Of a DNA stretch of 64,000 bases, positions 22,196 through 60,579 are shown piece by piece (positions within the stretch are counted from its first letter, which is position 1; the number at the start of each line of letters is the position of its first letter). The notes under the pieces are model-generated. The model was not told where the DNA came from. It searched no databases and worked only from the letters and a program-made list of their open reading frames with translations. The translations under genes and the position numbers were made by a program. The DNA is from Labyrinthula sp. Ha (Eukaryota > Sar > Bigyra > Labyrinthulida > Labyrinthulaceae): positions 124,001 through 188,000 of the forward strand of contig JAALGZ010000003.1 of assembly GCA_015227615.1 (NCBI GenBank). The letters are read 5' to 3'.

Positions 22196-23486
22196 TTTAA
22201 CAACCGAGAGTAAGCGCCTCTTGCAGAATAAGCACTAAAATTTAATATTCAGACTTGGACTAACTTTAGACGTATTTGGGGCGAACAAAAACTTTTTAAC
22301 ATTTTGTGCTTGCAGTGATTAGAATCTACCAAGAACAAAATATATTTTTAAGGAGTTTTGAAGATTATTCAAACCTACTGAACACAATCAGCAGCATGCA
22401 TAAATAAGCCTCATTCATTGGAAAGCTCTACACCAACTTTGTTTAAGAAACGATTCAATCGTCATCAGTGCTATATTTTGAAATAACAGGGGCACAAAGT
22501 AAATACAAAATCTTTCTTTTTTTGAATTGTTTCCTTATATAAGCTATGTATACTTGTCTTCACTACAATTTTTGAAAATAACTTTTTGCGGCTCAGTTAA
22601 AAGTAAACAATGTTCTTGCTGCTTGTAGTATTCTGCAGAAAGGTTAATGCAGTTGAGTCTAATGAATTCTTTTCACACTAAACTGGCATTCAACAAATGA
22701 ACAAGAAATGCAATTCCGGGGTATACAGGATTTATGATCACATCCTTCAATCTTTGCTTCGGTTTCTATTCTTCATGCCAAACAGGGGTTTTAAATCCCA
22801 AGTAAGATACACACCAAGTTGCCTATTATAGTGACACAACTTAATACTACTGGTTTTCGATACACCTTCCTGTATATTGAGTTTTTTCGCTTGATTTTAT
22901 CCAACTTCAGACGGATTACGAACTCAAATATTCGAAAACCCTTGTTAAGTAGCTAATTTGTTAGTATCTTTCGAGCTCTCTTGAAAAATAACTATCCCTT
23001 CATTCAAATCATGTTTTATGTAGAAAGTTCCAGTAATTACCAAATACTGAAATAGGAATATTCTCATAATATTCAATAGCATGCATAGAGATCCCATAAT
23101 AAATTTTCATGTCTGTCTATATTCCTTCAAGGCTACGAGAGTCAACACAAACTGGTTTGCAAGGTTCCAATGTAAAAGAAGCCAAGAAAGAAATTTGAAA
23201 CATTCTGAAGAATGTGTCCTCAGGTAGATATATTCATATTTATGTCACTATTGTGGATTTCTTGCAAGGGGAAAGAGTTTGTCCTGAATATGAATATGAC
23301 TTCGAGAACTGTTATCATGTTGATTTCCTTCGAAATGATCTGGCCATCAGTTGGAAAAATATGTCAAATTGCTTAAGGATAGTCGTAATTATCGGAGAAA
23401 TTCAATCACAGTAAAAGTTTCATGAAATGAACTCTAGTTTTGCTAAGTTTGCCAGGAAATTCTACATTTCTTTGACATATATCTTC
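22196..23486. other. Gene-free stretch
   Basis: No recognised gene, repeat or RNA. A 66-residue plus-strand frame at 23214-23414 has no known motif. Confidence 0.4.
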
Positions 23487-24054
23487 TGTTAGTCCTGCTT
23501 TGATATATAGCAGTGACTAACGCGCAGTTGTATTCTAGTTTGCTGTAAATAGTGACCCCTTGTGATAATTGGGTCGTGTCTTAAATGGTCGCGAATAGTT
23601 TCGAGCACCTTTAGTAACCGTTTGCAATATGACATTACTGTTGTTATTAACCGTTAATTACATTTCGTGGAAAAATAAATAAGGACACGACATTGAAAGA
23701 ACAGAGCTATATTATTAGGACAAAGTAATTTTATAAGAAACTAATCCATTTTATATCATCTATAGTATTTGCACTTTGGATTTATCACACTCAAGTTTAT
23801 TGCATCGTTGTATTTGTGAAGCACTACTCACTTCTTTATCTTTTATTCACATTTCACTTGACACGTCATATACATTTTACTCAGAAGACTTATATTACTC
23901 ACTTTACTTACTTTATACATTTACTACTTTTATTCATTCTATTTTCTATATTCTATTTCTCTATTCACTCTATATTTTCTATTCAATCTTATCTCTTTTA
24001 CACTTATCTTAATTCATCCAGATTCCACGCAACATTAAGCCGGTGGAACGATTA
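23487..24054 (+). repeat. 5' LTR of the methyltransferase element
   Basis: It starts TGTTAGTCCTG and ends GGTGGAACGATTA, and is the partner of 30624-31191. A pyrimidine-rich TTCTATATTCT-type low-complexity stretch lies at about 23930-24000. Short frames inside it are not genes. Confidence 0.93.
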
Positions 24055-24066
24055 TTGAAGCTTCAA
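24055..24066. other. 12-bp palindrome at the primer-binding position
   Basis: TTGAAGCTTCAA is a perfect palindrome and starts at the first base after the LTR, where a primer-binding site is expected. It does not begin TGG as tRNA 3'-end sites do. The related element at 54644-62435 has a different perfect 12-bp palindrome in the same place. Confidence 0.7.
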
Positions 24067-24067
24067 A

Positions 24068-25537
24068 TTGTTAAACCTCGACAATTCAAGATTATTTTTG
24101 GAACTCGATAGTAAAGGAAAACCTAGATATTACTTTAACGAAGGAAACCAGAAGATTTATTTGGAAATGTCTGACAATGATAGTGGAAGTATGCCAATTA
24201 CATCGGAGATGCTTGAAGCACTAAGGAAATTAGGTTCACCCTCCTCAAGACCGCCTCGCCTGCAGGTCTTGAGGAGTTTCGACATAGAACCGCTTTTGGA
24301 TTTTATCGTCCGTGCTAAGCGAATGTTTAAAAGTGACCCAGATCTTAAGATCATCGATTGGCTCTCGGGGGAAGTTTGCTATAAACTCGAGAGCCATGAC
24401 GTGAACCTGGAGGACACTAAAGCTGTGCTGGAACACCTCGACAGTATTGAAAAGCTGAGAGCTGAGTCGAGGTACCAGCACAGCATCGCTAGATTAGCTA
24501 ATGAACTTAAATTTCCTCAGAATGCCAACAGTGGCAAAGAAGCAATTACTAAATTTTTCTTCAAAATCAGAGAAATCCTAGGACCAGAGAAATCAAAAAA
24601 TATTAAGACACAGAAGACGGCAATAAAATCTATCATAAAGAAACTACCTAAATACTTTCAAGTCAATTCAGAAAATTTCAATGACCTTTTCCCACACGTA
24701 AATACGGTGGAAGATTTAGAGAAGACCTTACAAGTTCTGGCACCGATTGAGGATGCTAACATCCGCCAGCGTAGGTCAAGCTCGAAAGCACTTACTTTAC
24801 ACTCCCAGGCAGTCTCAAATTCAACAAACTTACCTCAATCCAATGATTCCATTGTATCTCCGATGTCATTTAATACCAATACATTCTTTGAACCCATTGA
24901 AAGAATGATTATTGCCCTCAACTCTATTCAAGCTAACATGAATAGATGTTACAACTGTGGGGGCACTGACCACTATGCTGCTCAGTGCACCGCTGCCAAT
25001 AAACCTTCTAATTTTACTCCGAGATCGAACACTTTATCGAGCTCCAATAGATCAAAAAACTTTAGAAACCCGAAGAAGGGGATGAAGCCTCCTAGGTTAA
25101 TCATGTGTTTCCAACCTAAGGCAGACCCTGTTGAGTTCGTAGAAGTTTTTGGAAGAGGGGAATGGCACACAGTTAAAGGAGTGTTGGATAGTGGGGCAGG
25201 ACAAACTATTGGCTCAATTAAGTCACATGAAAGATTCTGCTCGATGATCTTTCCTCCATACTCCAACCTCCAAGTTAAACTCGCAAATAACACTCCTATT
25301 CCAGTTGTCAAAGTAGGAGACATCACGGTTCGAGTTAGGGTACACCACGCAGAACCAGTCCACTTGGGCAAAATGCGTATTTTCATGGTCGATGATCCTA
25401 ACTTTGAGACGATTTACATAGGAAGAGATACACTTTTTAAAATCGGAGCTATGCCGGAACAAGTTTTGGTTAAAATGGCTCCGTGGCAGAGGAACTTGTT
25501 GGCTCTATTTATGGGAGGAAAGCCACAAAGAAACTGA
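24068..25537 (+). CDS. Gag-protease of the methyltransferase element
   Basis: A 489-residue frame with a helical capsid-like N-terminal half, a CCHC zinc knuckle (CYNCGGTDHYAAQC, about residue 296-309), a basic linker, and an aspartic protease with the DSGAG active-site motif (GVLDSGAGQTIGS, about 374) and a later hydrophobic strand near IYIGRDTLF. Gag forms the particle that packages the RNA; the protease cuts it. The start is the first ATG after the LTR and palindrome. Confidence 0.88.
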   Translation: MLNLDNSRLFLELDSKGKPRYYFNEGNQKIYLEMSDNDSGSMPITSEMLEALRKLGSPSSRPPRLQVLRSFDIEPLLDFIVRAKRMFKSDPDLKIIDWLSGEVCYKLESHDVNLEDTKAVLEHLDSIEKLRAESRYQHSIARLANELKFPQNANSGKEAITKFFFKIREILGPEKSKNIKTQKTAIKSIIKKLPKYFQVNSENFNDLFPHVNTVEDLEKTLQVLAPIEDANIRQRRSSSKALTLHSQAVSNSTNLPQSNDSIVSPMSFNTNTFFEPIERMIIALNSIQANMNRCYNCGGTDHYAAQCTAANKPSNFTPRSNTLSSSNRSKNFRNPKKGMKPPRLIMCFQPKADPVEFVEVFGRGEWHTVKGVLDSGAGQTIGSIKSHERFCSMIFPPYSNLQVKLANNTPIPVVKVGDITVRVRVHHAEPVHLGKMRIFMVDDPNFETIYIGRDTLFKIGAMPEQVLVKMAPWQRNLLALFMGGKPQRN

Positions 25538-25558
25538 AGCGATGGAGATGATGCTATT

Positions 25559-27469
25559 TTGCTCAAGCGTCATTGGAATCCGGTACTATCAGCTGTGCCG
25601 GACAACAGCAACAACAACTTACTAGTCATTGATACAAGTTATTTTTATTCAAAGTTTGAAGATATCTTCCCACTTATTGAGTGCGGGAAAGCAGTTTTAA
25701 ATGATTCAACGTTTTTTAATATAAAATTATCAAAATTAAATTTATATTCAAGCACAAGAGAAATCGATTTCACCACTTCAGATAAGATCCTTAACATGGA
25801 GAAGGCAGCAGACCTTTTGGACTTACCATCCAAACACCCTATTCGACTAGTTAACCCGTATGAAGATGTTGACGACAAAACCTTTCCCCAAGCTTCCTAC
25901 TTTGGAGGGGATGGCAAGGATCTCCCGATCGATGTAGAGAGGGCGAAGATAAAGAAGATTATTCCAGAAAGCATATCTAAAGTTCAATTTATCAATAAGA
26001 GTCAAAAGGAGAAGTTAAAGTCTATGTGTATTAACAATATTGCAGCCTTTGGACTTACCCAAGGCACTGGACAGGTTAGCGATTTAACGCCTGTGCCATG
26101 CCATTTGGCTCCAGACGCCCCACCGGGGATTTCAGTTAAACCAAGACCGGTGGGCCAGAAGGAGGAAACCTGGTTGAAGAACAGGATTGAGGAACTTGTC
26201 GCAGCTAACATTCTAAAGCGCGTCGAGGATTCAATATATTCGGTTCCGATACATATAGTGCCCAAGAAGAGTGAGGATCCCAACAAGCAATACCGCTTAG
26301 TTGTGGATATGAGGCGGGTGAATGACTTTACCATTCGCACCTCACTCCAACCTCCACATCTTGAACAACAACTTCAGAGAACGAGGCACGCAATTTATTA
26401 TGGTGCGGTCGACATCATGTCAGGCTTTGATTATTTACCAATACGGGAAGATGCAAAAAGATTCTTCAACATGGCCACTCCATGGGGGGCAGCGTACCAG
26501 TTCCAAGGCACTGTCCAAGGCTGGAAGAACTCCCCCCTTTACTTCCAAGACAGAATATTTAGAGAAATCTTGGAAGGGAGTGGCTTCATGGAACCTGACT
26601 CCATCTCTAGGGGTCTCGTTCAATGGGTAGACGACGTACTGCTATATTCTAGAGATTTCGATGCGTACGTGGATATGATGGATAAAGTCCTAAAGAGGTT
26701 TATTAAAAAGAAGGTGAGGCTTAACGTCAAGAAGTGTATTTTTATTTCGCAGAAGCTAAAATACTGCGGGAAATACCTGGAAAAAGGCACTGCTGCCTAC
26801 GAACCGGAATTATACACTTCAATCTTGAAAACGAAAAGGCCCACTTACCAACACCAACTTGCAGGAATATTATATGTCTGCAATTGGTTGGGTCCAACCA
26901 TATACAACTTAAACGAATTTAGAACCAAATTTTCCAAGGCTGTTAGATTGGGCATGAAGCAATCAAAGCTGAAAAGATTAAAGCTCCCAATAGCCTGGAC
27001 TGATGATTTAATAAAAGTTTGGGATTTATTTTTGTTGGAAATATCTAACGCGATGCGCAGGAACCTCTCAATGTATGATCCCGATCGCAGACTAAATATT
27101 TTTACAGATTCTAGTGAAATACATTGGTCATCCTTAATGACCCAGACCGATATTGAAGAGGATGCTTTACACATTATGAAGAAGAAGCACTACCCTGTAC
27201 TCTTATTGAATGGATCCTTCGCCGTGGGACAAATAAAATGGCATATTAGCCAAAAGGAAATATTCCCCATCTCAAAATTGTTGAAAAGGGTCGATTATTT
27301 AATTTTAGGCCATCCGAATCCTGTAAGGGTCTACACAGACCACAGGAATCTGATTTACCTCATTAAATCAAACTGGAATGAAAACAAATCGTATTTAGCT
27401 AGGCTAGGGCGTTGGGCTCTTATCCTTCAAGACGCGAATTTAATATTTTTCATATCAAAGGCGAATTAA
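25559..27469 (+). CDS. Reverse transcriptase and RNase H of the methyltransferase element
   Basis: A 636-residue frame with RT landmarks in order: KSEDPNKQYRLVVDMRRVN, GAVDIMSGFDYLPI, VQGWKNSPLYFQDRI and the catalytic QWVDDVLLYSR. RNase H follows, with NIFTDSSEIHWSS and KWHISQKEIFPI, then VYTDHRNLIYL. It copies element RNA into DNA inside the particle. RT type and order are Ty3/gypsy. Confidence 0.92.
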   Translation: MLKRHWNPVLSAVPDNSNNNLLVIDTSYFYSKFEDIFPLIECGKAVLNDSTFFNIKLSKLNLYSSTREIDFTTSDKILNMEKAADLLDLPSKHPIRLVNPYEDVDDKTFPQASYFGGDGKDLPIDVERAKIKKIIPESISKVQFINKSQKEKLKSMCINNIAAFGLTQGTGQVSDLTPVPCHLAPDAPPGISVKPRPVGQKEETWLKNRIEELVAANILKRVEDSIYSVPIHIVPKKSEDPNKQYRLVVDMRRVNDFTIRTSLQPPHLEQQLQRTRHAIYYGAVDIMSGFDYLPIREDAKRFFNMATPWGAAYQFQGTVQGWKNSPLYFQDRIFREILEGSGFMEPDSISRGLVQWVDDVLLYSRDFDAYVDMMDKVLKRFIKKKVRLNVKKCIFISQKLKYCGKYLEKGTAAYEPELYTSILKTKRPTYQHQLAGILYVCNWLGPTIYNLNEFRTKFSKAVRLGMKQSKLKRLKLPIAWTDDLIKVWDLFLLEISNAMRRNLSMYDPDRRLNIFTDSSEIHWSSLMTQTDIEEDALHIMKKKHYPVLLLNGSFAVGQIKWHISQKEIFPISKLLKRVDYLILGHPNPVRVYTDHRNLIYLIKSNWNENKSYLARLGRWALILQDANLIFFISKAN

Positions 27470-29352
27470 ATGTTTTAGCTGACATAGTCAGTCGATGGGG
27501 CAATCCCAATTATGAAGAACCACCTAATAAAACTATTCAACTTAATGCTTACAATCTTAGAAAGAAGAAAAAGAAAAATTATAATAACTCTGCTGATGAT
27601 GAAGAATCTTCTGAGTCCTTACAAGAATATCTTAAGAAGATGGACCAGGATCGTCTTTCATTCCTTAACCCATATTATAAAGGGGGTTGGAAGAGAATCA
27701 ATGAGCAGGAACTTTTATCTTTGCAAAGGAAATTAGAACCGACTTTGACGATACTTAAGAAAGTTAATGATAAAATATTTATACCTCTCTCTCTGGTTCA
27801 AAGACTTATAGTACATAATCATATCGCACTTGGCCATCCTTCGCAAACCTTGAAACTCAATGAACTAAACAAATATTATTATTTTGAACTACCCTACGGG
27901 ATAAAACTTGAGGACCTAATTAAGGAATTACACAGGCAATGTATTCACTGCGTCCGGGTTCCGTCCCTAATAAGGACCCCACACCATTCCACAGATCTAG
28001 GTGAGAAACGGGGGGATGTTCTCAGGTTGGAAATTTTATATATATCCAACGAGGGATATATCCTGGTGTTATTAGATAATGCAACAAGGAAAATTTCGTT
28101 GACCTATTGTAAGAAGTGTACAGCTATGGATGTGGTCAAATCTCTTCTAGTTTGGCACTCCTGGTTGGAACTTAGGCCTACTTTTACAAGTATCACCGAT
28201 AGAGGCTCACACTTTTGTAACATCTTATTACAGGAGTTAAGCCAATGGCTAAGATATACGCACTCCTTTGCGATATCTTATGCCCCATGGACTAACGGAG
28301 GTATTGAGGACTCCAATGTCCGTATTTTACTTATTCTGAGGTCGATCACTGACGAGTTACATCTTTCTCAAAATCAATGGAAAGAAACTTTACCATACAT
28401 TCAATCTACTACTAACATGTCAAGGAGTACTAGGAATAAAAATTATACACCTAATGAGTTATTTTTGGGTTTAACTAAACAAGAAGTAGATACAGATGAA
28501 GATTTTTTAATCAAGAGACATTTATTTAAGGCTGAAGGTGGGTCGAAACCACTGCAACGAGCTAGAAATCCAGATGTTATAATACAAGAGAGCAAGAAAT
28601 TAGCCAACTTTATTGATGAGAAGCAAAATATGGTCTATTCCTTCGTCAAAATGCCGAGGAAGAATACAAATGACAGATACAATGCCAAGTTCGCTAAAGG
28701 CATAATACAGTATAATTTAGGTGACTGGGTACTTACAAGCTCAGCTAACACCCATCGAGCAAGATTAAAATACAAGCTCAAGTGGCAAGGTCCCCTCCAA
28801 GTAGTAGACACGATTTCTGATAATGTCTACAAGTTGAAGAGCCTGTTGGGGAAGGAAATGGTGTGCCATGCATCACGGATGTGGTGGTATGAGCCTCCAG
28901 AGTACGAACCCTCAGAAGAAATAATGAAACATTTTAGGAGAACATACGGTGCACTTTCAGTTGAAGGAATATATGATATCAAGCTGACCCCGGAAGGACA
29001 TTATTTAAAGACGAAATGGCTTGGTTTTGAAGAGAAAGACTATACCTTCGAGCCATTAGAGATATTGGCGTCTGATGTTCCAAACCTGGTCAAAGATTTT
29101 TTATCAGAAGGGGGAGGATTAAAGAAGCAGCTAAGGAAGGGCGCTTTTGATATGGTCCCTGGAATTTTGAACAATGACAATGAAGCGGTTCACCTCAACG
29201 CGATACGCTGTTTCGCCAAGACACCATCAGAGGCTAAAACGTGGTTGCCAATCGAAAAGATCATCCTCAAACAATGCATTGCAGCATACGGAGTCGGCAA
29301 CTACAAATCCATACATGATAATGCCCACCTACCATATAAAAATACTAAATAA
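27412..29352 (+). CDS. Integrase with chromodomain and SANT-like C-terminus
   Basis: A 646-residue frame with an RNase H tail (ELNVLADIVSRWGNP), then an HHCC zinc region (HNHIALGHPS ... CIHC), a DDE core with VLLDNATRK, TDRGSHFCN and SYAPWTNGGIEDSNV, and a GPY-like segment ending VCHASRMWWYEPPE. A chromodomain-like segment (YLKTKWLGFEEKDYTFEPLE, about residues 520-560) and a SANT/Myb-like start (TWLPIEKIILKQCIAAYGVG, from about 610) follow. YSPWTNG-type integrase cores with HASR... and a chromodomain are known from oomycete gypsy elements. Chromodomains steer integration to modified histones. Confidence 0.88.
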   Translation: MGSYPSRREFNIFHIKGELNVLADIVSRWGNPNYEEPPNKTIQLNAYNLRKKKKKNYNNSADDEESSESLQEYLKKMDQDRLSFLNPYYKGGWKRINEQELLSLQRKLEPTLTILKKVNDKIFIPLSLVQRLIVHNHIALGHPSQTLKLNELNKYYYFELPYGIKLEDLIKELHRQCIHCVRVPSLIRTPHHSTDLGEKRGDVLRLEILYISNEGYILVLLDNATRKISLTYCKKCTAMDVVKSLLVWHSWLELRPTFTSITDRGSHFCNILLQELSQWLRYTHSFAISYAPWTNGGIEDSNVRILLILRSITDELHLSQNQWKETLPYIQSTTNMSRSTRNKNYTPNELFLGLTKQEVDTDEDFLIKRHLFKAEGGSKPLQRARNPDVIIQESKKLANFIDEKQNMVYSFVKMPRKNTNDRYNAKFAKGIIQYNLGDWVLTSSANTHRARLKYKLKWQGPLQVVDTISDNVYKLKSLLGKEMVCHASRMWWYEPPEYEPSEEIMKHFRRTYGALSVEGIYDIKLTPEGHYLKTKWLGFEEKDYTFEPLEILASDVPNLVKDFLSEGGGLKKQLRKGAFDMVPGILNNDNEAVHLNAIRCFAKTPSEAKTWLPIEKIILKQCIAAYGVGNYKSIHDNAHLPYKNTK

Positions 29353-29394
29353 CTTTCCACTCAAACCCAAAAACTGTTAGGCAAACAAAGTATT

Positions 29395-30555
29395 ATGGAA
29401 TATAGTACCCTCAAAGTGAATGCTGACTTGGTTTTATCTTACAACCTTACGAAATATGGAACGACATTTTATAAAGAATTGGAGAAGAAGAACGCTATAG
29501 CTGACCACATGGTGCAAAGATTTTTCAACTTATTCAGATTCACGAAGAATTTTAAACCACGACATCCATCTTCTATAATATTTTTTAGAAGATTGGACAG
29601 GCTGGATCTCGTTAAATCTAAGCTGAACTACTTAAGAGGGGTGGATGATGTCCGAGAACTTAGTAAAGTATACTCTAAAATAAGTTGGAGCAGTTTACCT
29701 TCAGAAATTCTAAAATTGGAAATAGAAGTCAGTGACAAAGAAGATGAAATAAAGATTAGGAATACTATATTCAAACAGATTCTGGTTACTGTCGAAGATT
29801 TACAGAAAGAAGCTTTCTCTAAAGAAGATTTTAATGTTCCGGCGGTCATTGTATTTAATCAAAAGAAATGCACGACGAGCTGGAATAAGGAGGATTCCGA
29901 AGTTGAAATATTATATGAGAAGTTTTCTCTTAACTATCCCTTTCTCGAATATGGAAGTCTACCTTTACATTTGGATTTATTGAAAGCTGATGATTTTTTC
30001 AACTTTTTAAAGAAAAACGTAGTTTATTTTCAATGCATTATCCTAGACCCGCCGTGGAAACTAGCCAATGAGATACCTACTAGAGGCCCGGCACTTACTT
30101 ATTCTCAGACGAATTTTCAGTCTATACCTTTCAAACAGCTGTTTTCTACTATAACAAGTGGGTTTGCTTTCGTTTGGGTTATACATTCCTACGAGCAACC
30201 TCTCAGATCGTTGATTACTGAGCTTGGCTACAAGATTGTGGATACTTTTACATGGGTCAAGGTCAGTGACCAAGGGCATTTATTATCTTCAACCGGCCCA
30301 AATATGAACAGAGCAAAGGAAACTTGTCTGATGATTTCTATTGGACAATCTTCTTCCTTACAAATTAAATCGAACTTTGGAGTCGATGTTATTTTATCTA
30401 AACGACGTGAACAATCTAGGAAGCCAGACGAACTCTATACGCGGATCGAAGCTGCCTATTCACAAAAGGCGAGGTTCTGTGAATTTTTTGGTCGCTCTTG
30501 GAACGCAAGAAGACGCTGGTTGACGATTGGAAATGAAATACCTGCAAATTTTTGA
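29395..30555 (+). CDS. MT-A70-family adenine methyltransferase inside an LTR retrotransposon
   Basis: A 386-residue frame between the integrase frame and the 3' LTR. The N-terminal half is helical with FFRRLDRLD, a segment shared with the 54644-62435 element. The C-terminal half has the MT-A70 plan: CIILDPPWK (catalytic DPPW at residues 218-221), FAFVWVIHSYEQPL, YKIVDTFTWVKV, NRAKETCLMISIG, DVILSKRREQSRKPDELYTR and RFCEFFGRSWNARRRW ... GNE. MT-A70 enzymes (METTL3, METTL4 and ciliate MTA1 relatives) transfer methyl from SAM to N6 of adenine in RNA or DNA. All recognisable motifs are present, so it may be active. Whether the target is element RNA, element DNA or host chromatin is unknown. Confidence 0.92.
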   Translation: MEYSTLKVNADLVLSYNLTKYGTTFYKELEKKNAIADHMVQRFFNLFRFTKNFKPRHPSSIIFFRRLDRLDLVKSKLNYLRGVDDVRELSKVYSKISWSSLPSEILKLEIEVSDKEDEIKIRNTIFKQILVTVEDLQKEAFSKEDFNVPAVIVFNQKKCTTSWNKEDSEVEILYEKFSLNYPFLEYGSLPLHLDLLKADDFFNFLKKNVVYFQCIILDPPWKLANEIPTRGPALTYSQTNFQSIPFKQLFSTITSGFAFVWVIHSYEQPLRSLITELGYKIVDTFTWVKVSDQGHLLSSTGPNMNRAKETCLMISIGQSSSLQIKSNFGVDVILSKRREQSRKPDELYTRIEAAYSQKARFCEFFGRSWNARRRWLTIGNEIPANF

Positions 30556-30609
30556 TTTGGAAAATTTTAAATCGCGTTATTTTGATTTCTTAGGTCTTGT
30601 TGAGAACAA

Positions 30610-30623
30610 CACCTAGGGGGCGA
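30610..30623 (+). other. Candidate polypurine tract
   Basis: The G-rich CTAGGGGGCGA directly precedes the 3' LTR, where the plus-strand primer of LTR elements forms. It is only partly purine. Confidence 0.5.
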
Positions 30624-31191
30624 TGTTAGTCCTGCGTTGATATATAGCAGTGACTAACGCACAGTTGTATTCTACTTTGCTATAAATAGTGACCCCTTGT
30701 GATAATTGGGTCGTGTCTTAAATGGTCGCGAATAGTTTCGAGCACCTTTAGTAACCGTTTGCAATATGACATTACTGTTGTTATTAACCGTTAATTACAT
30801 TTCGTGGAAAAATAAATAAGGACACGACATTGAAAGAACAGAGCTATATTATTAGGACAAAGCAATTTTATAAGAAACTAATCCATTTTATATCATCTAT
30901 AGTATTTGTACTTTGGATTTATCACACTCAAGTTTATTGAATCGTTGTATTTGTGAAGCACTACTCACTTCTTTATCTTTTATTCACATTTCACTTGACA
31001 CGTCATATACATTTTACTCAGAAGACTTATATTACTCACTTTACTTACTTTATACATTTACTACTTTTATTCATTTTATTTTCTATATTCTATTTCTCTA
31101 TTCACTCTATATTTTCTATTCAATCTTATTTCTTTTACACTTACCTTAATTCATCCAGATTCCATGCAACATTAAGCCGGTGGAACGATTA
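30624..31191 (+). repeat. 3' LTR of the methyltransferase element
   Basis: The same length (568 bp) as 23487-24054, with about 98% identity by eye. It is followed by the CTTC target duplication. Confidence 0.93.
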
Positions 31192-31195
31192 CTTC

Positions 31196-32100: not shown

Positions 32101-32613
32101 CTAATTATTCACTATAATTATTTTTCTTGTGAAGAAATATTTGACACCCATGTGTCTTGGCTTCTCAGATAATGTCTGTCCCTGTATTAGTTTCACCGTA
32201 GACAAACTATCGGTAAAAACGTTTACGTCCAAGTCCTTTACGTCCATGAAGTTTAATACGTTTTTTATCCACTCCGCTGTAGAAAGGGCCCTTGTCAGTC
32301 CCACGAGTTCGGCTACCGTTGACGATATACTGATGTTCTTTTGCTTCTTGATTTTCCACGACACCGCACCTCCATTCAGTGTGATTAAGTATCCCTTCAG
32401 GCTCCATTTATCGCCGGTGACGTTTTTCCAGGATGCGTCACTATATACATTCATGGTCCAGTTATTGAAGTTCTTTCTATACAAAATTCCGTATGTTTTT
32501 GTGCACAACAGGTATTTTAAGACTCTTTTGGCAGGTCGTATGTGTTCGATCGCGGGTTTCTTTGTAAAGGTAGCAAGACGATTTACTATGAGTGACACGT
32601 CAGGTCTTGCCAT
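32101..32613 (-). pseudogene. Copia RNase H region
   Basis: The frame opens with ARPDVSLIVNRLATF and continues to VYSDASWKN, the SSTVAELVGL block and KPRHMGVKYFFTRK, the standard copia RNase H end. It belongs to the 31791-36176 element. Confidence 0.8.
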
Positions 32614-32737
32614 TTCACAAATGAAATGTAAGGTACCTATGATCCTTTGGTATAATGTTGGTTATACTTCGTTGTCTTCTTGTAAGATATACATTCCAGG
32701 TTGATGCGGAGTGTCAGTCGTTTTCGTTCGTTCCATA

Positions 32738-33457
32738 TCAAGTAGATGTGCAGTTCGGGTAATGTACCCTTGTAAATTCACAAATTTCCCGTTTTCCGTG
32801 TCGGTAATCGAAACCGATAAAATTTTGGGCATGATCCGTACTTTTGATGTCATAAACCGTTTGCAATTCTTTCAGAATCTTGATCGCGTTGTTCCTGTCC
32901 TTTGAAGAGATCAAAATGTCATCAACATAAATAAGGAAAAAGTCAAATTGGCCGTGAGCATTGTGGCGCTTGAACAGTGTAGTATCGATCAAGGAGTTCG
33001 TAAATCCAATGGATTGAAGTGTCTTCGATATGTGTATATACCATTTTCTTCCTTATTCTTTTAGGCCGTAGATAGCTTTGAATGAGCTCTAGACGTATTT
33101 GCCCCGCTTTTTGCTGAAGATCTGAGGAAGCTAGTAATACCTTTTTGTGTCCAGAGAGGCGTTTAAGTATGCGTTCGATATATCGACCTGATGGATCTTG
33201 TTCTTGTAAGCGGCAACGTGCGCCAGGAAGATCCTAATTGTTTCTTTATTGCTGACCGGAGAATGAACAGATTCCATTTGAGGGATGTTCTTGCCATTAG
33301 CTGTGAAACGGACTTTATATATGTCCTTCTTGTTCACGTTGTCGTATTTTTTTGTAAAAAGTTCCAGAAAGTGGTATATTTGGGTTCCTTGTGACAGCGG
33401 TTCCCCATGTTCCAGTTTACATTTTGCGACTTTGATAAATTTTTTAGCTCCTTCCAA
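32738..33457 (-). pseudogene. Copia reverse transcriptase region
   Basis: Two frames carry RT text: YKVRFTANGK, SPVSNKETIRIFLAHVA and IHQVDISNAYLNASLD at 33131-33457, and the catalytic IYVDDILISSKDR at 32738-32992. It belongs to the 31791-36176 fossil. Confidence 0.75.
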
Positions 33458-33918
33458 TATGCTTGAAGCCAGAACTCTCTCTCGCTGGATCTCATAGCTG
33501 CTTTGAAACTTTTGGGTAACGTCTTTTCCTTTACTTTTGTAGCGTTGTATATATCAAAGTTGAAAACGAAGTGTTTCTTCAATTTTTGAGCAATGATGTA
33601 GTTCGCTGTTATTGGATGGGTATCTTTCTTTTTCTTTTGTTTTATTCTAGAGCTTCTCCTGACCCAGTGCTCAGTGTTTTCAGTATCAGGTTCGTTCCTT
33701 ATCTCAAGGAAAGTTTTGTATGGGTCTTCATCTGCTAGATTTTGTATCAAGTTTTTTTCTTTTGGAGCTCGTTGAGTTATAGCGTATTGTCTATATTCAT
33801 TTCTGAAGTTTCTGGTATAGATATCATTTCTCGTGCGGTTATTCAGTATCGCAGACTCGGATGATATTCTTGAAGGTGCGAGATATATTCCTTTTTCGTT
33901 CTTAGGTAGTACTTTTTG

Positions 33919-34248
33919 TTACTTTGCCCCCTTTCTGTAAGATAATGGCTCTCCAAATCTAAAATATTTGTTCAATTCCGGTGTTTTATTGTAGAAGAGG
34001 TGATATGGTACTTCTTGTGCCATATTATTCCAGGTGATATTTAGAATTTCGACTGCGTAGGTTGCTGCAAAGTTCCAGTATAGGACCGATATCTTGGAGT
34101 CGTTCAAGAGCATTTTGATTTTCTCCAATACACTGCGGTTGGATCTTTCCGCGATACCGTTTTGTTGCGGTGTATATTTTGCACTAAACCTGTGGCCGAT
34201 CACATGTTGTTGCAGGAATGATTTGAGTTTTGAGTTTCTGAATTGCAT
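33919..34248 (-). pseudogene. Copia integrase core fragment
   Basis: YTPQQNGIAERSNRSVLEKIKML is the copia integrase catalytic-Glu block, followed by LNITWNNMAQEVPYHLFYNK. It belongs to the 31791-36176 fossil. Confidence 0.8.
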
Positions 34249-34453
34249 ACATTGGTCTCAATACAGTTCTTTTGGGTATGTTCCACTTTTCCTCTATTTC
34301 ATTTAGTATGTCTATAACGTGTCTTGGGATCTCTTAAGCTTTTCTGTACGTTCGAAGAAACCTCATTTTCGTAAGGCTGTCTGTAAGAAGTACAAATGCA
34401 ACTTTACCTTTCTTTGACTTGAACCCTGTTTTGACTGTATCACCGTATATTCG

Positions 34454-34873
34454 TTAGTTTGCTATCGTTGCTGGATCTTTTCTCTTTGATTTATTTGGTA
34501 GTCTCGCATCTTTGCACGCGTTACAGATTCCGCAGTTGCGATGTTGGCGTTGTTGTTCTTTGGATATGTTATAATGTAGAAGTGTTCTATTCAGGATCTG
34601 CTCACTTGGGTGCATAAAAAATCTGTACCAGAAATTTTGGCAGTGATTCACGTCTCCTTCTACTCTATATAGGTTGTTCTTTTTCTTTTCTATATTTAGG
34701 ATGTTACAATTGCCACTTTGAATGGTGAGTTTCTTATCATTCATCTCAAAGTCGAACCCTTTGGTGGCAAGTTTTCCTAAAGATACTAGTATTGACTTGT
34801 TCGTTGAATCTATCAAACACACTTCTTTCAATTGTAGTTCCATATTGTACATTTTTATTCTTAGGGATTCCAT
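34454..34873 (-). pseudogene. Copia protease-integrase linker with zinc-binding motif
   Basis: The frame ends in an H...H...CxxC pattern (FMHPSEQILNRTLLHYN ... CGICNACKDARLP), the copia pre-integrase zinc domain. Confidence 0.65.
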
Positions 34874-35274
34874 TTTTCTGGTGTCTGACGAGCTGTTTAT
34901 GCCCTTTACCTTTGTACCCTTTATTTACTTAACCTCCGACATATATTTTTCGAGTTCTATGGGTGCGATATGCTCGCTGGCCCCGCTATGAAATACGATA
35001 TCATAAATTCCTTTTTTGTTCTTCTTTTCCTTTTCTAATTATTGTTTTGTTTTTTCTTTTTCTGATTTATTTATATTTATGTTTGAAACATATCCTTGTA
35101 TTTCTTTCAAATAACTGCTTGTCTTCGTTGATGAAGTGACCTGACTTTGTCCCTCGTTTATGTTGGATATGTCCTCTTCTTCGTCCTTCTGTTTATTTAC
35201 GTATTTTGCCTTGGGTTCTCTTTTGACTCTACATTCTTTCGTAGAGTGTCCGAAACCATTGCAGTTATTGCATT

Positions 35275-36115
35275 TTATCTCTCTACATTGGGCTCTAACG
35301 TGTCCATAACGTTTACAGTGATGACATTGTAAACCTTTGCCTTTTCTGTTTCACGTTTTGTGTCCGTTTTTGTTATAATGTGAACCTTTTTTTTATTTTG
35401 GGCACCCTTTGATCTTTCAAATTTATTTGCCAAAATATGTAAATGACGAAGGACCTTTTCAACTGAATAAAAATCTGGCTGCGTGTCCACTGCAATTTGA
35501 AGTAACCTGCTTTCCTCTGTGTTCATTATTTTGATTGCTCTTTCTATGACCTTATCGTCATCAATCATACGTCCCGCCTGTTTATATGCTGTGATGTTTA
35601 TCTCGAAATCCTGTAACTTCTCATTCAGATTATTTCCTGCTGGTTTCTTGAACTTATCCTTAGATATTTGTTTTTAAGCACTGTCGGTAAGAGAAAACAT
35701 CTTGGCAAGTTTGCTCCAAATTTCTGCAGCAGATTTGATACCTTTCAGGCGCATCAGTACCTTGTCGCCGATTCTATTTATTATGAGTGACACTAAGACT
35801 GCGTTTTTATTTGCAGCTGAAACCCCTATGAGTGGGTCCTTGTTGTTCTTAAGCTTGGTTAGTTGCGACTCAAGGTCGACCATCTTTTCCTTTTCACGCA
35901 GAAATGATTCAATCCTCCACTTCCAAATTTCATAGTCTTCCTCTCCTTGGAGAGGGCTGATCATATTCTTTATTTCCATTTTTTGTTTCGGCTGTTAACC
36001 TGTTTAATTCCATTCTTTCTTTATGTTTAAACCTTATTACATTCTCTATTCTATATGATATTCTAAAAGCTATATGATATTTAGCTAGCTCAATTATTTC
36101 ATATAGTTTACACAT
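35275..36115 (-). pseudogene. Copia gag region
   Basis: Frames at 35674-35979 (MISPLQGEEDYEIWKWRIE, then AAEIWSKLAKMF) and 35275-35568 show the UBN2-type copia gag. Cys/His-rich knuckle text follows near 35230-35330. Confidence 0.7.
35987..36000 (-). other. Primer-binding site matching tRNA-Asn anticodon arm
   Basis: The minus strand reads GGTTAACAGCCGAA from the LTR edge. Its complement TTCGGCTGTTAACC is the anticodon stem-loop of eukaryotic tRNA-Asn(GTT). This implies priming by a tRNA half, as known for Drosophila copia with initiator tRNA. Confidence 0.7.
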
Positions 36116-54849: not shown

Positions 54850-55802
54850 AGATGACTCTCTGTGGTTCGAAGACAGGTAAGCAAGATGCATCTTCGGTTC
54901 CAGATCCAAGCCGATGTTGGTTCACTGTGACCTGACATTGTTGCTTCTTGAATATATGTCAACTTTTTTTGCAAAGGGATAGAGCTCGTCTAAAATGTAA
55001 TAAAATAACTCTGGTTTAGCAGATGGAGCGATTGTGTAAGTTCTTAAGACAGAACTGAACTTATTCTTACCCACAGCGTTGAAGGTATCAACGTATTTCA
55101 AATCGGGAGAACTTCTTCTTTCAAAGATAAAACATGTCTCTTGAGAGTGTTGGAGAAAATGACCCAAACTATTAAAAGGTTCGCCATGTTTCGTGTATTT
55201 AACCTACGTTAAACAGTCAACTAGATAATATTTTTGATCAATAGCCCAATCTAAAACGCAATGATAACTGTAGTTAGTTACCCAAATATATAAATATGAA
55301 CCAAATGGGAAGTGAGCTAAAGGAAGTTTTATTCTCTTGAAGTCAACTAAAAATAGAGCAGGATATTTTAAACCAACCCCACGGGTTGGATTCTTGCTGT
55401 TACAGCCCATGGTGGATCCATGACATCGACTTGAAGAATGCTGTTTTTAGACCTGGGTTTATGGAATTGTATATGAAAAATATCTGTAATGTAAACCATC
55501 TTGTACAGAGGTTCGAAATAGACTGTTGCCTCGCTACCATCGATCAGAAAAGTGTTGCCTCCGAGGTCTTTTAAGATTATCTTCTTCTGTGTATCAACTT
55601 CCAGGTAAACAAGTTGAACTGCATCAGAGTTAATCGAAATAATCAAAGAGTTGCTGTAATATTTGAATCTTGCCTGCAACGACTCAGCATCAATCAAAGA
55701 TATATATTCTTCGAAGGGAAACGTTATCATTGAAAATAAGGAACTTATTGTGAACCACGTTTCTTCATTCAGGAATAGGAATCTATTGATCTTGTGCAGC
55801 AA
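54850..55802 (-). pseudogene. MT-A70 methyltransferase region of the second element, broken
   Basis: Frames at 55368-55802 (ending VDVMDPPWAVTARI), 55204-55410 (GSYLYIWVTNYSYH) and 54922-55167 (SQETCFIFERRSS ... AKPELFYYILDELYPFAKKV) carry the MT-A70 blocks in the right order. The region has about two breaks. It lies between the SANT/linker region and the 3' LTR, as in the first element. Confidence 0.8.
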
Positions 55803-55861
55803 AGCTTCGGTGTCTAAAATTATACTCTTAACATCCTCATTGAAATGCTTGATCGAATCCT

Positions 55862-56992
55862 TTATCTCTTGAAAAGAGTGTATGTTTTCTTTCTTATGAA
55901 CTGCTTATCTTCCAGCTTCTCCGATTCTTCCATCAGCAACCTTAGGTGTTTCAGATCGTCCAATCTCCTAAAATAAGGAATAACAATACCTGTTCCGTCA
56001 ATCAGCGTCACTTCCTGCTTAAACAGTTGTAGAATATGTTCTTTTTCCAAAAGGGTGTTCAACGATCGAGGGAGGTTCTTATACATTCCAGTGATCCCGA
56101 AATGTTTAGATAAAAAACCCCTCGCTTCGCTTATCTTGAACTTCAGTTCGTGAAAGATTCCGATTGTCTGCAGGTTTAGGAGCCTTTGAAGTTGAGTTGC
56201 GATCTGTTGCTTGCTTCTAAAGGGGAGTGTGTTTGTTCTTAGATAATCCACGTAGCAGCCGCAGCCGTATTTTAACACCAACGCTTCTAGAAAGATCTTC
56301 TCTTCCAGGTACCAACCTAGCATATTTCCTTCCGGTGCTCTGTCTATCTGCCTCAATTTTGTGTGCCTCAACTGGATCTTATTTAACTTCAGGTTTCTTA
56401 TTCTATTTTTCTTGGTATCATATTTCTTTTTATCGATATTTTCCATTAGAACTAGTAAGTGCACTCTTTTTCCTTGATCGTGAACTTCATCTTCCACATA
56501 TCTCCGCACCAGAACTGGGAGGTCTTGGTACATAAGCTCGAAATCCTGCCATGTGTCTTCGTTTTCATCGAAGCCCAACCATCTTGTTCTTATTTCGCAA
56601 TGAGCTTTAATGCCTTGGGGAAAACGTATCCCTAGGAACTTCTCCAGCTCTAAGGATTGAAAGTTATGCACAAAAGGGGCCTTTAGCTTTCGGTTACACA
56701 AAGGCCGACTATCAACGTACCACCAAAGTCGACTGCCGCGAACCAGATTCACCCTATTCGTTAGGGATTCCACCGAATACACGTGTTTTGAAACGATGTC
56801 TATTATTTGATATGGGCCTAACCATGTTAACCTTGTTTTCTCTTTTGCGCTTCGAGTGCCTTCTTCGCAAACTAGAACGTAGTCCCCGACACTAAATTGG
56901 AAAATCAGATTATGGGTAGGATCACGTCGCTTGTTATCTGCTTCTCTTTTTAGTAACACATTGTCGTAAATTTTCGCGTGTAGGTCGTCCAT
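55862..56992 (-). pseudogene. Integrase C-terminus, chromodomain-like and SANT/Myb-like region
   Basis: A 376-residue frame: a GPY-like integrase end (TRLTWLGPYQIIDIVSKHVY, then RGSRLWWYVD), a chromodomain-like segment (IRTRWLGFDENEDTWQDFE), a basic linker, and a clear SANT/Myb-like segment (GWYLEEKIFLEALVLKYGCG ... LPFRSKQQIATQLQRLL, about residues 225-275). A helical linker with PYFRRLDDLKHLR follows, matching FFRRLDRLD in the first element. SANT/Myb domains bind DNA or histone tails; its presence upstream of a methyltransferase suggests targeting. Confidence 0.8.
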
Positions 56993-57810
56993 AACTTAGA
57001 AATATTTTTCACTTCCTCCAAGAGGCTACCCACCTGATCCGGTTGTAGGATCCTGTCTGCCAGCTGTATCGAAAAATGCTTCGGGTCCTGTAAAAACAGA
57101 GGTTCCTTTATTCTAAAATATAGGAACAACTCATTCGGTGTTGCATTCAACCTTCTTGTCATAGGTTTGTTGTTCATTAAATAAGTAATTACCGACAACA
57201 AGCTCAACCATTCTGCTTCCTGCAGGCAAAACTGCGAAACCAAACTACGGGTGTGACTTAGGACTGTTGAATTGATTGTTTCTACTGCTCTGTTTGTCCA
57301 TGGTGAATAAGCAATTATATAACTTTGGGAAAACCCAACTGCTTTTAAGAGTTGAGTTAGCAACTCGTTTGCGAAATGAGAACCATTATCTGTGACTATT
57401 AAGAAGGATTGGAGAAGCCCATAGTTTGCTCTCCACATTAGTAGCGCGTCCACTATGGTACTGGCCATTGCTCCTTCTGAAAACGTCATCTGTATCTTTC
57501 TGGTGGCGGAATCCAAGATAACCAGAATAAATCATACCGACTTGACATATAAGTAGTCCGCTCTTAGAATTTCTCTGGGTTTCTTCACCAGCTTTGTGAG
57601 GTTATAGGGCTATCGGAGTAGCCTAGGTAAACGATTGTAGTGTAGACATTTGCCTCGGAAAGTATTCAAAAGCTTGTTCAAGTTCCTCTTCAACAGATCA
57701 TGAAAATAAACTTCAGACAGAAACTTCTTCTCCGCTTCCTTTTTTGCGTGTCCCCGTTGTGTGTGATTGACAATAATATATTTTACAAGGAGTTTTTCTG
57801 GTATCACCAA
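56950..57810 (-). pseudogene. Integrase region of the second methyltransferase element
   Basis: The core has LIVTDNGSHFANELLTQLL and IAYSPWTNRAVETINSTV, the second and third catalytic blocks, like TDRGSHF and SYAPWTNGGIED in the first element. A zinc-domain-like stretch lies at 57610-57810. Confidence 0.8.
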
Positions 57811-57915
57811 TTTTCCTTGGAAATAAAAAAGATCCTCTTTAATGGAGCATTTTTCCTTAGAACCATCTGGTAAAATCCTCTGTGATCTTTTAATTTCTTT
57901 TTTTAATTAAATTGT

Positions 57916-58413
57916 TTACACTTCTTTTTTTGGATAAAATGGTGAAAGGTAAGATATGTATTCACCAACAAACATATTTTCCAAGTCTGAAACAACAACA
58001 TCTAGAACTTCTTCTCGCGGTTCCAGTGGGTCGTCATTAGAATCCCTTGAGATTTGCATAATCGTGATGCCCCTTACCTTTATTCTACCCATAAAAATAT
58101 TATCAACATGCCTGCTTTCGTCTTCCAGCACTGTAGTCCAGTCCTTTCGATCTGAAATGTGATATTCGGCATCGCTAAGGTTTTCTTCCAGGAATTCGGA
58201 AGAGTCTTCTATACAATCTCCTTCTAATTCATTAGTAGTTAAATCCAACGTGAAAAAGCATTTTGCAGTTTTAAAAGTTTGCCTATTTCCCCATCTTGTC
58301 AACAAGTCACTCGCAAAATTGTTTCTGCTACTGATATGAAAAGCCGTCATATCTACTGACTGTAAGCGGATTGCCCAACGATAAAGGCGATCCCAGTAGA
58401 TTCTTTTTTTCAT
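57916..58413 (-). pseudogene. RNase H tail and linker of the second methyltransferase element
   Basis: IYWDRLYRWAIRLQSVDMTA and SSRNNFASDLLTRWGN match the end of the RNase H domain, as ELNVLADIVSRWGNP does in the first element. An acidic linker precedes the integrase. Confidence 0.75.
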
Positions 58414-58462
58414 TTTCTTTAGTATTTATCACTGATAATAAGGCGTGGTGATCTGTATACAC

Positions 58463-60418: not shown

Positions 60419-60579
60419 AGCTGTGGATAGAATAAATATAAAACTTCCAACTTGATATTATTGTTCTGAGAAGATAAAGCGCAGACGTTTCCATCCTGAA
60501 CAAAAAGAACTTTAGTCCGGTCCTTCATCGGAAAAGATTTCACCGGCTCCAGAAGTCGAGATGCTTCCTTGCCGATTTC

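Follow-up and report, generated by a model that had tools for sequence, protein, structure and literature searches.

Labyrinthula sp. Ha carries an LTR retrotransposon with a reading frame for an MT-A70 (N6-adenine) methyltransferase. Does this enzyme belong to the element, to which branch of the MT-A70 family is it closest, and what might it do there? "The window" denotes the whole stretch of DNA that was analysed, 64,000 nucleotides of contig JAALGZ010000003.1; L numbers denote loci of the genome.

Anatomy of the window element and its relatives

A Ty3/Gypsy-type LTR element that includes a chromodomain occupies positions 23487-31191 of the window, with an MT-A70 enzyme encoded in its 3' part (Table 1). 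In agreement with a preliminary description, which had called the insertion recent and its LTRs about 98% identical, the LTR pair shows 11 mismatches over 568 bp (8 transitions and 3 transversions) and is bordered by a 4-bp CTTC duplication. The enzyme frame lies where that description had placed it, between integrase and 3' LTR, adjoining the integrase-chromodomain frame on one side and the LTR on the other. The RT/RNase H and integrase frames overlap at 27403-27466, where the frame changes.

Table 1 Features of the window element and of a second, decayed element, in window coordinates
Feature	Position	Strand	Remarks
Target-site duplication CTTC, left copy	23483-23486		Pairs with right copy at 31192-31195
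5' LTR, 568 bp	23487-24054	+	98.06% identity with 3' LTR
Perfect palindrome TTGAAGCTTCAA	24055-24066	+	Abuts 5' LTR, at expected position of tRNA primer site
Gag-like frame: CCHC zinc knuckle, then retropepsin-like segment	24059-25534	+	zf-CCHC E 5.5e-5; DSGA near 25187
TGA stop between Gag-protease frame and RT frame	25535-25537	+	Same layout in L042
Reverse transcriptase (about 26258-26770) and RNase H (about 27077-27433)	25538-27466	+	RVT_1 E 1.4e-17; RT_RNaseH E 2.1e-14
Integrase (core about 28015-28287) and chromodomain (about 28960-29103)	27403-29349	+	Chromo E 4.3e-6 (above cut-off); rve E 7.6e-5 (below cut-off)
p1-like Myb block, split by TAA at 29350-29352	29242-29442	+	Tetrahymena p1 match E 2.0e-7, with one TAA
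Open frame: end of p1 block, linker, MT-A70 domain (about 30028-30537, DPPW); stop 30553-30555	29353-30555	+	PF05063 E 8.7e-25
3' LTR, 568 bp	30624-31191	+	Pairs with 5' LTR
Target-site duplication CTTC, right copy	31192-31195		Pairs with left copy
Second, decayed element of the same kind, C-terminal part	54925-56995	-	p1/Myb block in frame 55865-56995 (p1 profile E 1.1e-20); MT-A70 pieces in frames 54925-55203 and 55207-55446 (MT-A70 profile E 7.2e-11 and 3.2e-6)

A Pfam scan of four elements (the window element, L040, L042 and L044) finds the order RT-RNase H-integrase-chromodomain in each, with matches under the cut-off for rve in the window and, narrowly, in L044, and for Chromo in L040. 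The part carrying the Myb block and the enzyme sits after integrase and chromodomain in all four. In the relatives L039, L040, L041 and L044, pol and methyltransferase form a single uninterrupted ORF of 2180-2660 aa inside an LTR pair, with the enzyme as its C-terminus. Because the enzyme of these relatives is continuous with pol and the window copy has both a stop in the p1/Myb block and a change of frame between RNase H and integrase, the separate "methyltransferase ORF" of the window is a product of damage, and a separate methyltransferase gene with its own ATG was rejected. The start at 29395 given beforehand needs correcting: the frame opens at 29353, directly after the stop, and the ATG at 29395 falls within a conserved block and is probably not the natural start. 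The earlier statement about an open frame is true of the enzyme but not of the element, whose polyprotein is broken by the TAA, the TGA and the frame change.

Five further elements have LTR pairs of 97.5-100% identity. Reading the flanks by eye gave 4-bp duplications of GCTC (L040), TATG (L041) and GTGC (L044), the LTR ends of L041 and L044 being offset from the BLAST ends by a few bases; at L039 and L042 the same reading gave no clear target-site duplication. Behind the 5' LTR, the window element, L039, L040, L041 and L042 have a TTG...CAA palindrome, and L044 has a shorter one. The gag/pol layout of L042 is like that of the window element. The downstream flanks of L042 and L043 differ, as those of independent insertions would, but as L042 shows no clear duplication the difference may also reflect recombination.

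Identity of the enzyme and of the Myb-like block

The MT-A70 profile PF05063 is matched in full (model positions 1-172) by the frame 29353-30552, at 88 bits where the cut-off is 23.9 bits, and the translation holds all of the blocks that had been named for it: DPPW, VWV, ETCL, SRKPDELY and FGR...W...GNE. The claim of an LTR element with an MT-A70 enzyme is borne out. Taken alone, the window enzyme scores 111.5 bits against MTA1 (E 4.6e-31) and 70.3 bits against METTL3 (E 1.5e-18). A profile of 35 type-A C-termini gives 248 bits for MTA1, 136 for METTL3, 82 for METTL14 and 75 for METTL4, and a profile of 16 type-B C-termini gives 205 bits for MTA1 and 162 for METTL3, so that MTA1 leads METTL3 by 112 and 43 bits, respectively. 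Judged by profile score, the nearest relative of the element enzyme is AMT1/MTA1, the eukaryotic writer of 6mA in DNA. A tree built from the methyltransferase alone, a kind of check that the preliminary description had proposed, places the elements beside MTA1 and the host AMT1, but the joining node has a UFBoot of 31 (FastTree about 0.54) and AMT1 is not separated from METTL3. The predicted type-A fold (pLDDT 85.5) has MTA1 in MTA1c as its top Foldseek match, and for the predicted type-B fold Foldseek places METTL3 above MTA1. The best 50 of the 704 matches to the type-B model include no retropepsin; the assignment of a retropepsin comes from the DSGA motif together with a Pfam match in L040 that is weak (E 0.046) and under the cut-off. 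In type-B elements the retropepsin appears to sit between p1 and AMT1.

The catalytic motif was compared in 56 non-redundant domains, the host gene included. It reads DPPW in 36 and DPPY in 7; the other 13 have DPAW (6), DAPW (2) or, once each, DPPG, DLPW, DYPW, DFPW and DLPF. Given these 13 altered motifs, some lineages may be catalytically inactive. A recent bacterial or phage origin was rejected: in the 20 listed of 23 records, phage matches show 23.5-28.8% identity over 44-50% of the query. Known AMT1/MTA1 enzymes act on ApT sites of DNA together with an MTA9-type partner. Observed/expected ApT in the window element gives no clear signal, at 0.97 in the LTR, 0.97 in gag-pol and 0.83 in the methyltransferase, with 0.83 for the whole window.

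Upstream of the enzyme lies the Myb-like block. Its profile finds p1 as the clearly best match in the PDB (E 2.3e-22), followed by SNAPC4 (3.3e-15) and c-Myb (5.1e-13), and a generic Myb domain was rejected on this ground. The type-B profile spans p1 residues 18-158 (E 6.9e-27). Similarity to p1 is clear over about 75 aa and weaker further on, the type-A alignment to residue 239 being weak. The structure model predicts helices between the Myb block and the enzyme; in the ciliate complex the C-terminal helix-turn-helix of p1 binds the N-terminal helix of MTA1. Since the enzyme is nearest AMT1/MTA1 and the Myb block nearest p1, the C-terminus of the polyprotein is, by sequence similarity, a p1-AMT1 fusion. 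The activity of MTA1 is reported to require p1 and p2, and p1 is described as the likely DNA-binding part of the complex (PMC9852454); a 2025 survey reports p1 and p2 only together with AMT1 (PMC12695648).

Spread, selection and co-inheritance

The genome of 50.8 Mb contains at least 150 MT-A70 matches; among the matches listed, 101 of 150 are preceded by a p1 match at a distance of 0.1-1.6 kb. We read 74 distinct places, counting as two L027 and L028, whose 4.1-kb sequences agree throughout, also in the flanks, and which may be a single locus assembled twice. Myb-like block and enzyme occur together in 71 of these 74 places and share one open frame in 60 of the 71. Of the remaining three, one belongs to the host itself: L008/L032, with 57% to Tetrahymena MTA1 and no long pol-like frame within the 3.6 kb read, appears from its sequence to be the host AMT1, and among the places read it alone looks like a host gene rather than an element. 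The host appears to have two p1 genes as well (L087 and L088). By uL3 score the host's highest PDB matches are 9vtg (607 bits) and plant ribosomes (8azw, 606), ahead of Toxoplasma (571), human (561) and yeast (521); chitin synthase, light-harvesting and phycobilisome-linker families gave no match, and an early-diverging fungus as host is not supported. A search for the pattern in viral and prokaryotic contigs gave 23 and 7 matches, respectively, none of them confirmed.

Synonymous sites are often saturated between element lineages. Among 26 pairs compared, all ten with a methyltransferase dS of 0.1-1 have a dN/dS of 0.07-0.26, in line with the constraint claimed beforehand; in such close pairs the enzyme is, by these ratios, under purifying selection. 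The DPAW clade gives 0.15 (L003-L004) and 0.20 (L001-L002). In each of the nine pairs with saturated methyltransferase dS, dN is lower in the MT-A70 domain than in the upstream region (for example 0.19 vs 0.40 for L003-L001). The enzyme and the adjoining integrase end give trees that agree: 17 of the 18 strong bipartitions of the methyltransferase tree are found again when the stretch upstream of p1 is used.

Possible roles and known systems

We lean towards the reading that a diverse Gypsy family captured AMT1 and p1 as a C-terminal fusion and that element DNA is self-marked with 6mA, favouring expression. A Ty3/Gypsy chromodomain family would have captured the catalytic AMT1/MTA1 and the DNA-binding p1 and joined them at the C-terminus of its polyprotein. 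Made together with the integrase, the enzyme would methylate adenines, probably in ApT, in element cDNA or freshly integrated DNA, with p1 providing DNA binding within the same chain and a host MTA9-like partner either needed or not. New copies would bear a mark that in other eukaryotes is kept on permissive chromatin undergoing transcription; this would raise their chance of expression and lower that of silencing. Such self-marking is, on the sequence evidence, the most likely role. We put forward only tentatively, and with some doubt, that a single-chain p1-AMT1 6mA writer might, independently of the host complex, mark new copies of the element that encodes it.

Chromodomains are thought to steer integration to heterochromatin, and the p1-AMT1 part stands directly in this company, after integrase and chromodomain in the four Pfam-scanned elements. 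It might instead be a targeting module that docks the integrase on host 6mA machinery or 6mA-marked promoters and so steers integration. The likely DNA-binding nature of p1 (PMC9852454) would suit this, as would the altered motifs in 13 of 56 domains, given that the DPAW clade nevertheless looks constrained. We consider it unlikely: 43 of the 56 domains retain DPPW or DPPY, and the lower dN of the MT-A70 domain in all nine saturated pairs is as expected of an enzyme.

Less probable again is that the enzyme methylates element RNA, with consequences for export, translation, packaging or decay. The MT-A70 domain is common to METTL3, which is the first Foldseek match of the type-B model and is left unseparated from AMT1 in the methyltransferase tree, and orchid Gypsy elements with a working m6A demethylase are a precedent for the control of Gypsy RNA through m6A (PMC9289625). 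Against this stand the lead of MTA1 in both profiles and a p1-like neighbour, p1 and p2 being reported only with AMT1 (PMC12695648). Where the preliminary description had allowed m6A marking of DNA or RNA, the MTA1 scores and the p1-like block favour the DNA side; the RNA roles it named (packaging, splicing, translation) are less likely because the profile score is nearest AMT1/MTA1 and p1 is reported exclusively with AMT1.

We give little credence to a decoy role, in which the fusion would interfere as a subunit with the AMT1 complex of the host and leave elements derepressed or host expression changed. An apparent host AMT1 and two p1 genes are available to compete with, and some domains have lost the standard motif, but 43 of 56 have DPPW or DPPY and a decoy need not retain both p1 and the full catalytic fold. 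An artefact, either a host gene inserted into one element, which had been set beforehand as the refuting case, or an assembly join, is ruled out: although the window's separate ORF and stop codons resemble a chance neighbour, and no other copy exceeds 48% full-length methyltransferase identity to it, both blocks recur in 71 of 74 places, pol-methyltransferase ORFs are intact within LTR pairs, and the enzyme and upstream trees agree.

The presence of 6mA in eukaryotes has long been disputed. In the 2025 survey (PMC12695648) it is linked to AMT1 and to permissive chromatin, and the MT-A70 families are said to have been relatively static since the early evolution of eukaryotes, with which at least 150 matches in one genome contrast; MT-A70 counts from genome surveys can be inflated by elements. 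If the single-chain writer is real, a parasite brings its own epigenetic mark of active genes. The family also opens to direct test a long-standing question, whether elements use host-type activating marks for the expression of new copies, beyond escape from silencing. A natural single-chain p1-AMT1 fusion is also on offer for biochemistry.

The Dam-type methylase of DIRS elements and MT-A70 are unrelated enzyme families, and METTL3, which has DPPW and in METTL3-METTL14 writes m6A in RNA, shares the MT-A70 fold with the element enzyme. Like Tetrahymena MTA1c (AMT1-AMT7-p1-p2; PDB 7yi8, 8xyl), the Labyrinthula elements combine a catalytic MT-A70 with a Myb-like p1, as matched by sequence; the ciliate subunits are described as separate proteins with MTA9 and p2, whereas here p1 and AMT1 form one chain in an LTR-element polyprotein in which no MTA9 or p2 part came to notice (PMC9852454, PMC12695648). 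Retrotransposons with a captured DNA methyltransferase have been reported as KnitGypsy-Dnmt3 of Klebsormidium nitens, itself a Gypsy element for which purifying selection is reported, and as SymbioLINE-Dnmt and SymbioDIRS-Dnmt3 of Symbiodinium (PMC5890265). They likewise hold the enzyme in an element ORF in many copies, but theirs are C5-cytosine DNMTs, not an AMT1-like MT-A70 with p1. The preliminary description knew of no equivalent with an adenine methyltransferase; DIRS elements with a putative Dam-type N6-adenine DNA methyltransferase are such a precedent (PMC5890265, PMC6338049), though they pair a tyrosine recombinase with a bacterial-type Dam, and the Labyrinthula elements an rve-type integrase with a eukaryotic AMT1-like enzyme. 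The orchid (Phalaenopsis) Ty3/Gypsy elements also captured an enzyme of N6-methyladenine metabolism, an AlkB RNA m6A demethylase, reported as a recent eraser in one lineage (PMC9289625), whereas ours is a writer, judged DNA-type, in a deeply diverged family. In the Labyrinthula genome Dam (PF05869) gave no match, the E. coli positive control giving one, and C5-methylase matches number two in the whole genome.

Structure and spread of the MT-A70-bearing elements

The window spans positions 124001-188000 of contig C77 in the host genome G000 and holds an LTR retrotransposon with 568-bp LTRs (11 mismatches between the pair, 98.06% identity) and a CTTC target duplication on either side. Reading on from the 5' LTR, a zinc knuckle lies in a Gag-like frame and is followed by a retropepsin motif, reverse transcriptase (RT), RNase H, integrase, a chromodomain and the MT-A70 frame. 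The preliminary description had proposed an LTR element carrying an MT-A70 adenine methyltransferase, and the profile search bears this out over the whole Pfam model. Its claim of an open frame holds for the MT-A70 frame and fails for the element, which is interrupted by a TAA, by a TGA between gag-protease and RT (likewise in L042, a further locus of the family) and by a frame change from RNase H to integrase. Given these breaks in the window copy, the apparently separate ORF is, as read from the sequence, the tail of a polyprotein.

Coordinates of features in the window and elsewhere in the host genome (G000)
Feature	Position	Strand	Basis or remark
LTR retrotransposon, including target duplications	window 23483-31195		LTR pair and duplications
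Post-LTR palindrome	window 24055-24066		TTGAAGCTTCAA
In-frame stop TAA	window 29350-29352		breaks the reading frame of the window copy
MT-A70 frame	window 29353-30552		end-to-end match to Pfam MT-A70, E 8.7e-25
Copia-like frames	window 32104-35994	minus	Gag zinc knuckles, integrase and RT pieces, by eye
Second element of the same kind	window 54925-62094	minus	decayed family member
Post-LTR palindrome of L042			TTGTTTAAACAA
Free-standing host p1 paralogue	L088 603-1757 (G000:C1)		C-terminal Agenet domain, weak Tudor match
C5-cytosine methylase match	G000:C77:362853-363845		one of two in the genome
C5-cytosine methylase match	G000:C121:1129060-1130208		one of two in the genome

In the host genome (50.84 Mb in 153 contigs searched) there are at least 150 MT-A70 matches, all above the family cut-off (the best 150 of 354 candidates scored); one is a host gene, and 31 of these best 150 sit in stop-free open frames of 1706-2660 aa. 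The same genome shows just two matches to C5-cytosine methylases. The enzyme and a Myb-like block occur together, in any frame, at 71 of 74 distinct places (84 loci read), so the ORF is not absent from all other copies, the case that the preliminary description had named as refuting its reading. The 74 were chosen by search rank, with L039-L084 also favoured for long or open frames, and 71/74 is thus not a random-sample fraction. The three exceptions are the host gene (L008/L032), L018 with 16 stops, and L033/L034, preceded by an RT match. Free of this selection bias, a match to p1, the Myb-like partner of the DNA 6mA writer AMT1, lies 0.1-1.6 kb upstream for 101 of the best 150 MT-A70 matches (p1: best 150 of 316). 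When the best 99 of 690 RT candidates are set against the best-scoring MT-A70 and p1 matches, 45 are followed at a distance of 1-6.5 kb by both, 24 by MT-A70 alone, 8 by p1 alone and 22 by neither, the earliest of the last at rank 36; both places fetched from these 22 (L089 and L090) do encode p1 and MT-A70.

Besides the window element, five elements were fetched with both LTRs (L039, L040, L041, L042 and L044; LTR pairs 97.5-100% identical), plus L043, whose 5' end is missing. A single long ORF ending in the methyltransferase (MTase) is present in L039 (2660 aa), L040 (2358), L041 (2278) and L044 (2180); pol domains were scanned in L040 and L044, and the Gag part of all four ORFs is assumed. 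L042 has two ORFs (573 and 1756 aa) and shares 6290 bp with L043 at 2 mismatches, after which the downstream sequence diverges. No other locus compared in the host genome is a close copy of the window element: over the full length, MTase identity is 41-48% for the nearest relatives, and single pieces reach 56-59%. In the second element of the window, profiles match a Myb block of p1 type and disrupted pieces of MT-A70; frames that by eye, on the ORF list, look like integrase and RT lie beyond these. The Copia-like frames lie just downstream of the MT-A70-bearing window element.

These Ty3/Gypsy elements come in two layouts. In type A (the window, L042, L044 and others) the retropepsin motif stands ahead of RT, with p1 directly joined to MTase. 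In type B (L001-L004, L007, L039-L041, L045-L048 and others) a DSGA retropepsin motif stands between p1 and MTase, possibly a relocation of the retropepsin within one lineage. Strands are predicted at the DSGA segment in the type-B model; its Pfam retropepsin match is sub-threshold only, and a protease is absent from the Foldseek best 50 of 704 matches for that model. The split between the types is one bipartition in the MTase and p1 trees alike (47 sequences); in the tree with references, L072 and L075 fall apart from the remaining type B.

Kinship of the enzyme and its Myb-like block

Against solved structures, the window frame matches Tetrahymena MTA1 best (4.6e-31), followed by METTL3 (1.5e-18), METTL4 (4.7e-5) and METTL14 (1.4e-4). 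We take the PDB chains used to be Tetrahymena MTA1 and p1, and 7cv6 to be METTL4; entry titles and molecule names agree. A type-A profile (35 C-termini, window included) scores 248 bits with MTA1, 136 with METTL3, 82 with METTL14 and 75 with METTL4, and a type-B profile (16 C-termini) 205 with MTA1 and 162 with METTL3. The AlphaFold model of L010 (pLDDT 85.5) has MTA1 of the Tetrahymena complex MTA1c as its top Foldseek match; for the type-B model (pLDDT 73.8) METTL3 is slightly ahead of MTA1 (3.4e-17 vs 7.6e-17). The tree suggested in the preliminary description (56 MT-A70 domains and 6 references, 170 columns) places the elements beside MTA1 and host AMT1, but as UFBoot for that split is 31, the tree alone is not decisive on AMT1 affinity.

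Of 71 open enzyme frames, 60 have the Myb-like block upstream of the enzyme; two of these 60 (the window and L009, its own copy) hold only the half after the stop. The other 11 comprise two of the host gene (L008/L032) and nine that start too far downstream. A profile of the block (n=35) finds p1 of Tetrahymena MTA1c best (2.3e-22), then SNAPC4 (3.3e-15) and c-Myb (5.1e-13); with type-B sequences the match spans p1 18-158 at 6.9e-27. Passages of PMC9852454 state that MTA1 and MTA9 have no nucleic-acid-binding domain, that activity needs p1 and p2, and that MTA1 touches p1 through its N-terminal helix; an excerpt of PMC12695648 reports p1 and p2 with AMT1 only across eukaryotes. The enzyme match and the p1-like block are therefore two separate pieces of sequence that point to a DNA 6mA writer. 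The catalytic motif is altered in 13 of 56 non-redundant domains, so enzyme function may differ among lineages. The lineages with an altered motif are L001-L007, L041 and L045 (DPAW), L072 and L075 (DAPW), and L048, L058, L060, L074 and L078.

L008/L032 appears to be the host's own AMT1, with 57% identity to Tetrahymena MTA1, to which it is joined at UFBoot 87. L087 and L088, each 47% identical to Tetrahymena p1, appear to be two free-standing host p1 genes; L088 is possibly a chromatin reader fused to p1. Identity to host AMT1 is 39-45% for the six elements that score best against it. Their top score of 154 bits barely exceeds the 143 bits that elements reach, at best, with the ciliate enzyme, which argues that capture was old or evolution fast.

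Constraint and joint inheritance

NG86 estimates were made on 26 pairs picked as near relatives, which share sequences and are not independent. The preliminary description had inferred constraint on the enzyme and proposed dN/dS among natural copies as a check: dN/dS is 0.07-0.26 in all 10 pairs with MTase dS of 0.1-1, and 0.12 and 0.24 in two pairs with dS >1. The five pairs with dS <0.1 gave 0.78 (L010-L011), 0.32 (L070-L071), 0.20 (L001-L002) and 0.19 (L062-L066), with zero synonymous MTase changes in L072-L075. MTase dS is saturated in nine pairs, and in 9/9 of these dN is lower in the MT-A70 domain than in the upstream region. In DPAW-clade pairs dN/dS stays low despite the altered motif.

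Of the well-supported MTase bipartitions, 17 of 18 are also present in the tree built from the stretch just ahead of p1, by position the integrase end with the chromodomain (34 sequences; 18/31 overall), and 20 of 26 in the p1-block tree (47 sequences; 24/44 overall). Distance correlations are 0.77 for the upstream region and 0.66 for the p1 block, equalled by 0/999 permutations. These shared bipartitions and correlations argue, at the level of sequence, that the enzyme has long been carried along with its element.

Proposed role, precedents and element ends

Anatomy, profile relationship, spread and constraint are documented here for the p1-AMT1 elements. From sequence and analogy, the module is probably a 6mA writer acting on the element's own copies. 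Within a polyprotein that also has integrase and a chromodomain, p1 and AMT1 would carry the writer to the element's cDNA or to a fresh insertion, and 6mA on the new copy might then favour expression, by analogy with the permissive chromatin that 6mA accompanies in other eukaryotes (PMC12695648, in excerpt). As the chief alternative, the module would direct integration towards 6mA sites of the host. Less likely still are methylation of RNA by the element enzyme and interference of the module with the host complex.

Passages of PMC5890265 and PMC6338049 describe cytosine DNMTs in Gypsy, LINE and DIRS elements and Dam adenine methylases in DIRS elements; those of PMC9289625 describe an m6A RNA demethylase in Gypsy elements of orchids. 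DIRS with Dam is thus a published precedent for a retroelement encoding an adenine methylase, and the preliminary description was too broad in recalling no such equivalent; for MT-A70 or p1-AMT1, no such retroelement is described in the titles and abstract openings of the open-licence PMC papers listed.

Target-site duplications are readable in four of six elements, all of 4 bp: GCTC (L040), TATG (L041), GTGC (L044) and that of the window. Where a tRNA primer site would normally adjoin the 5' LTR, the window element, L039, L040, L041 and L042 have a short, perfect palindrome of the form TTG...CAA, and L044 has a shorter one; it could reflect an unusual priming mode.
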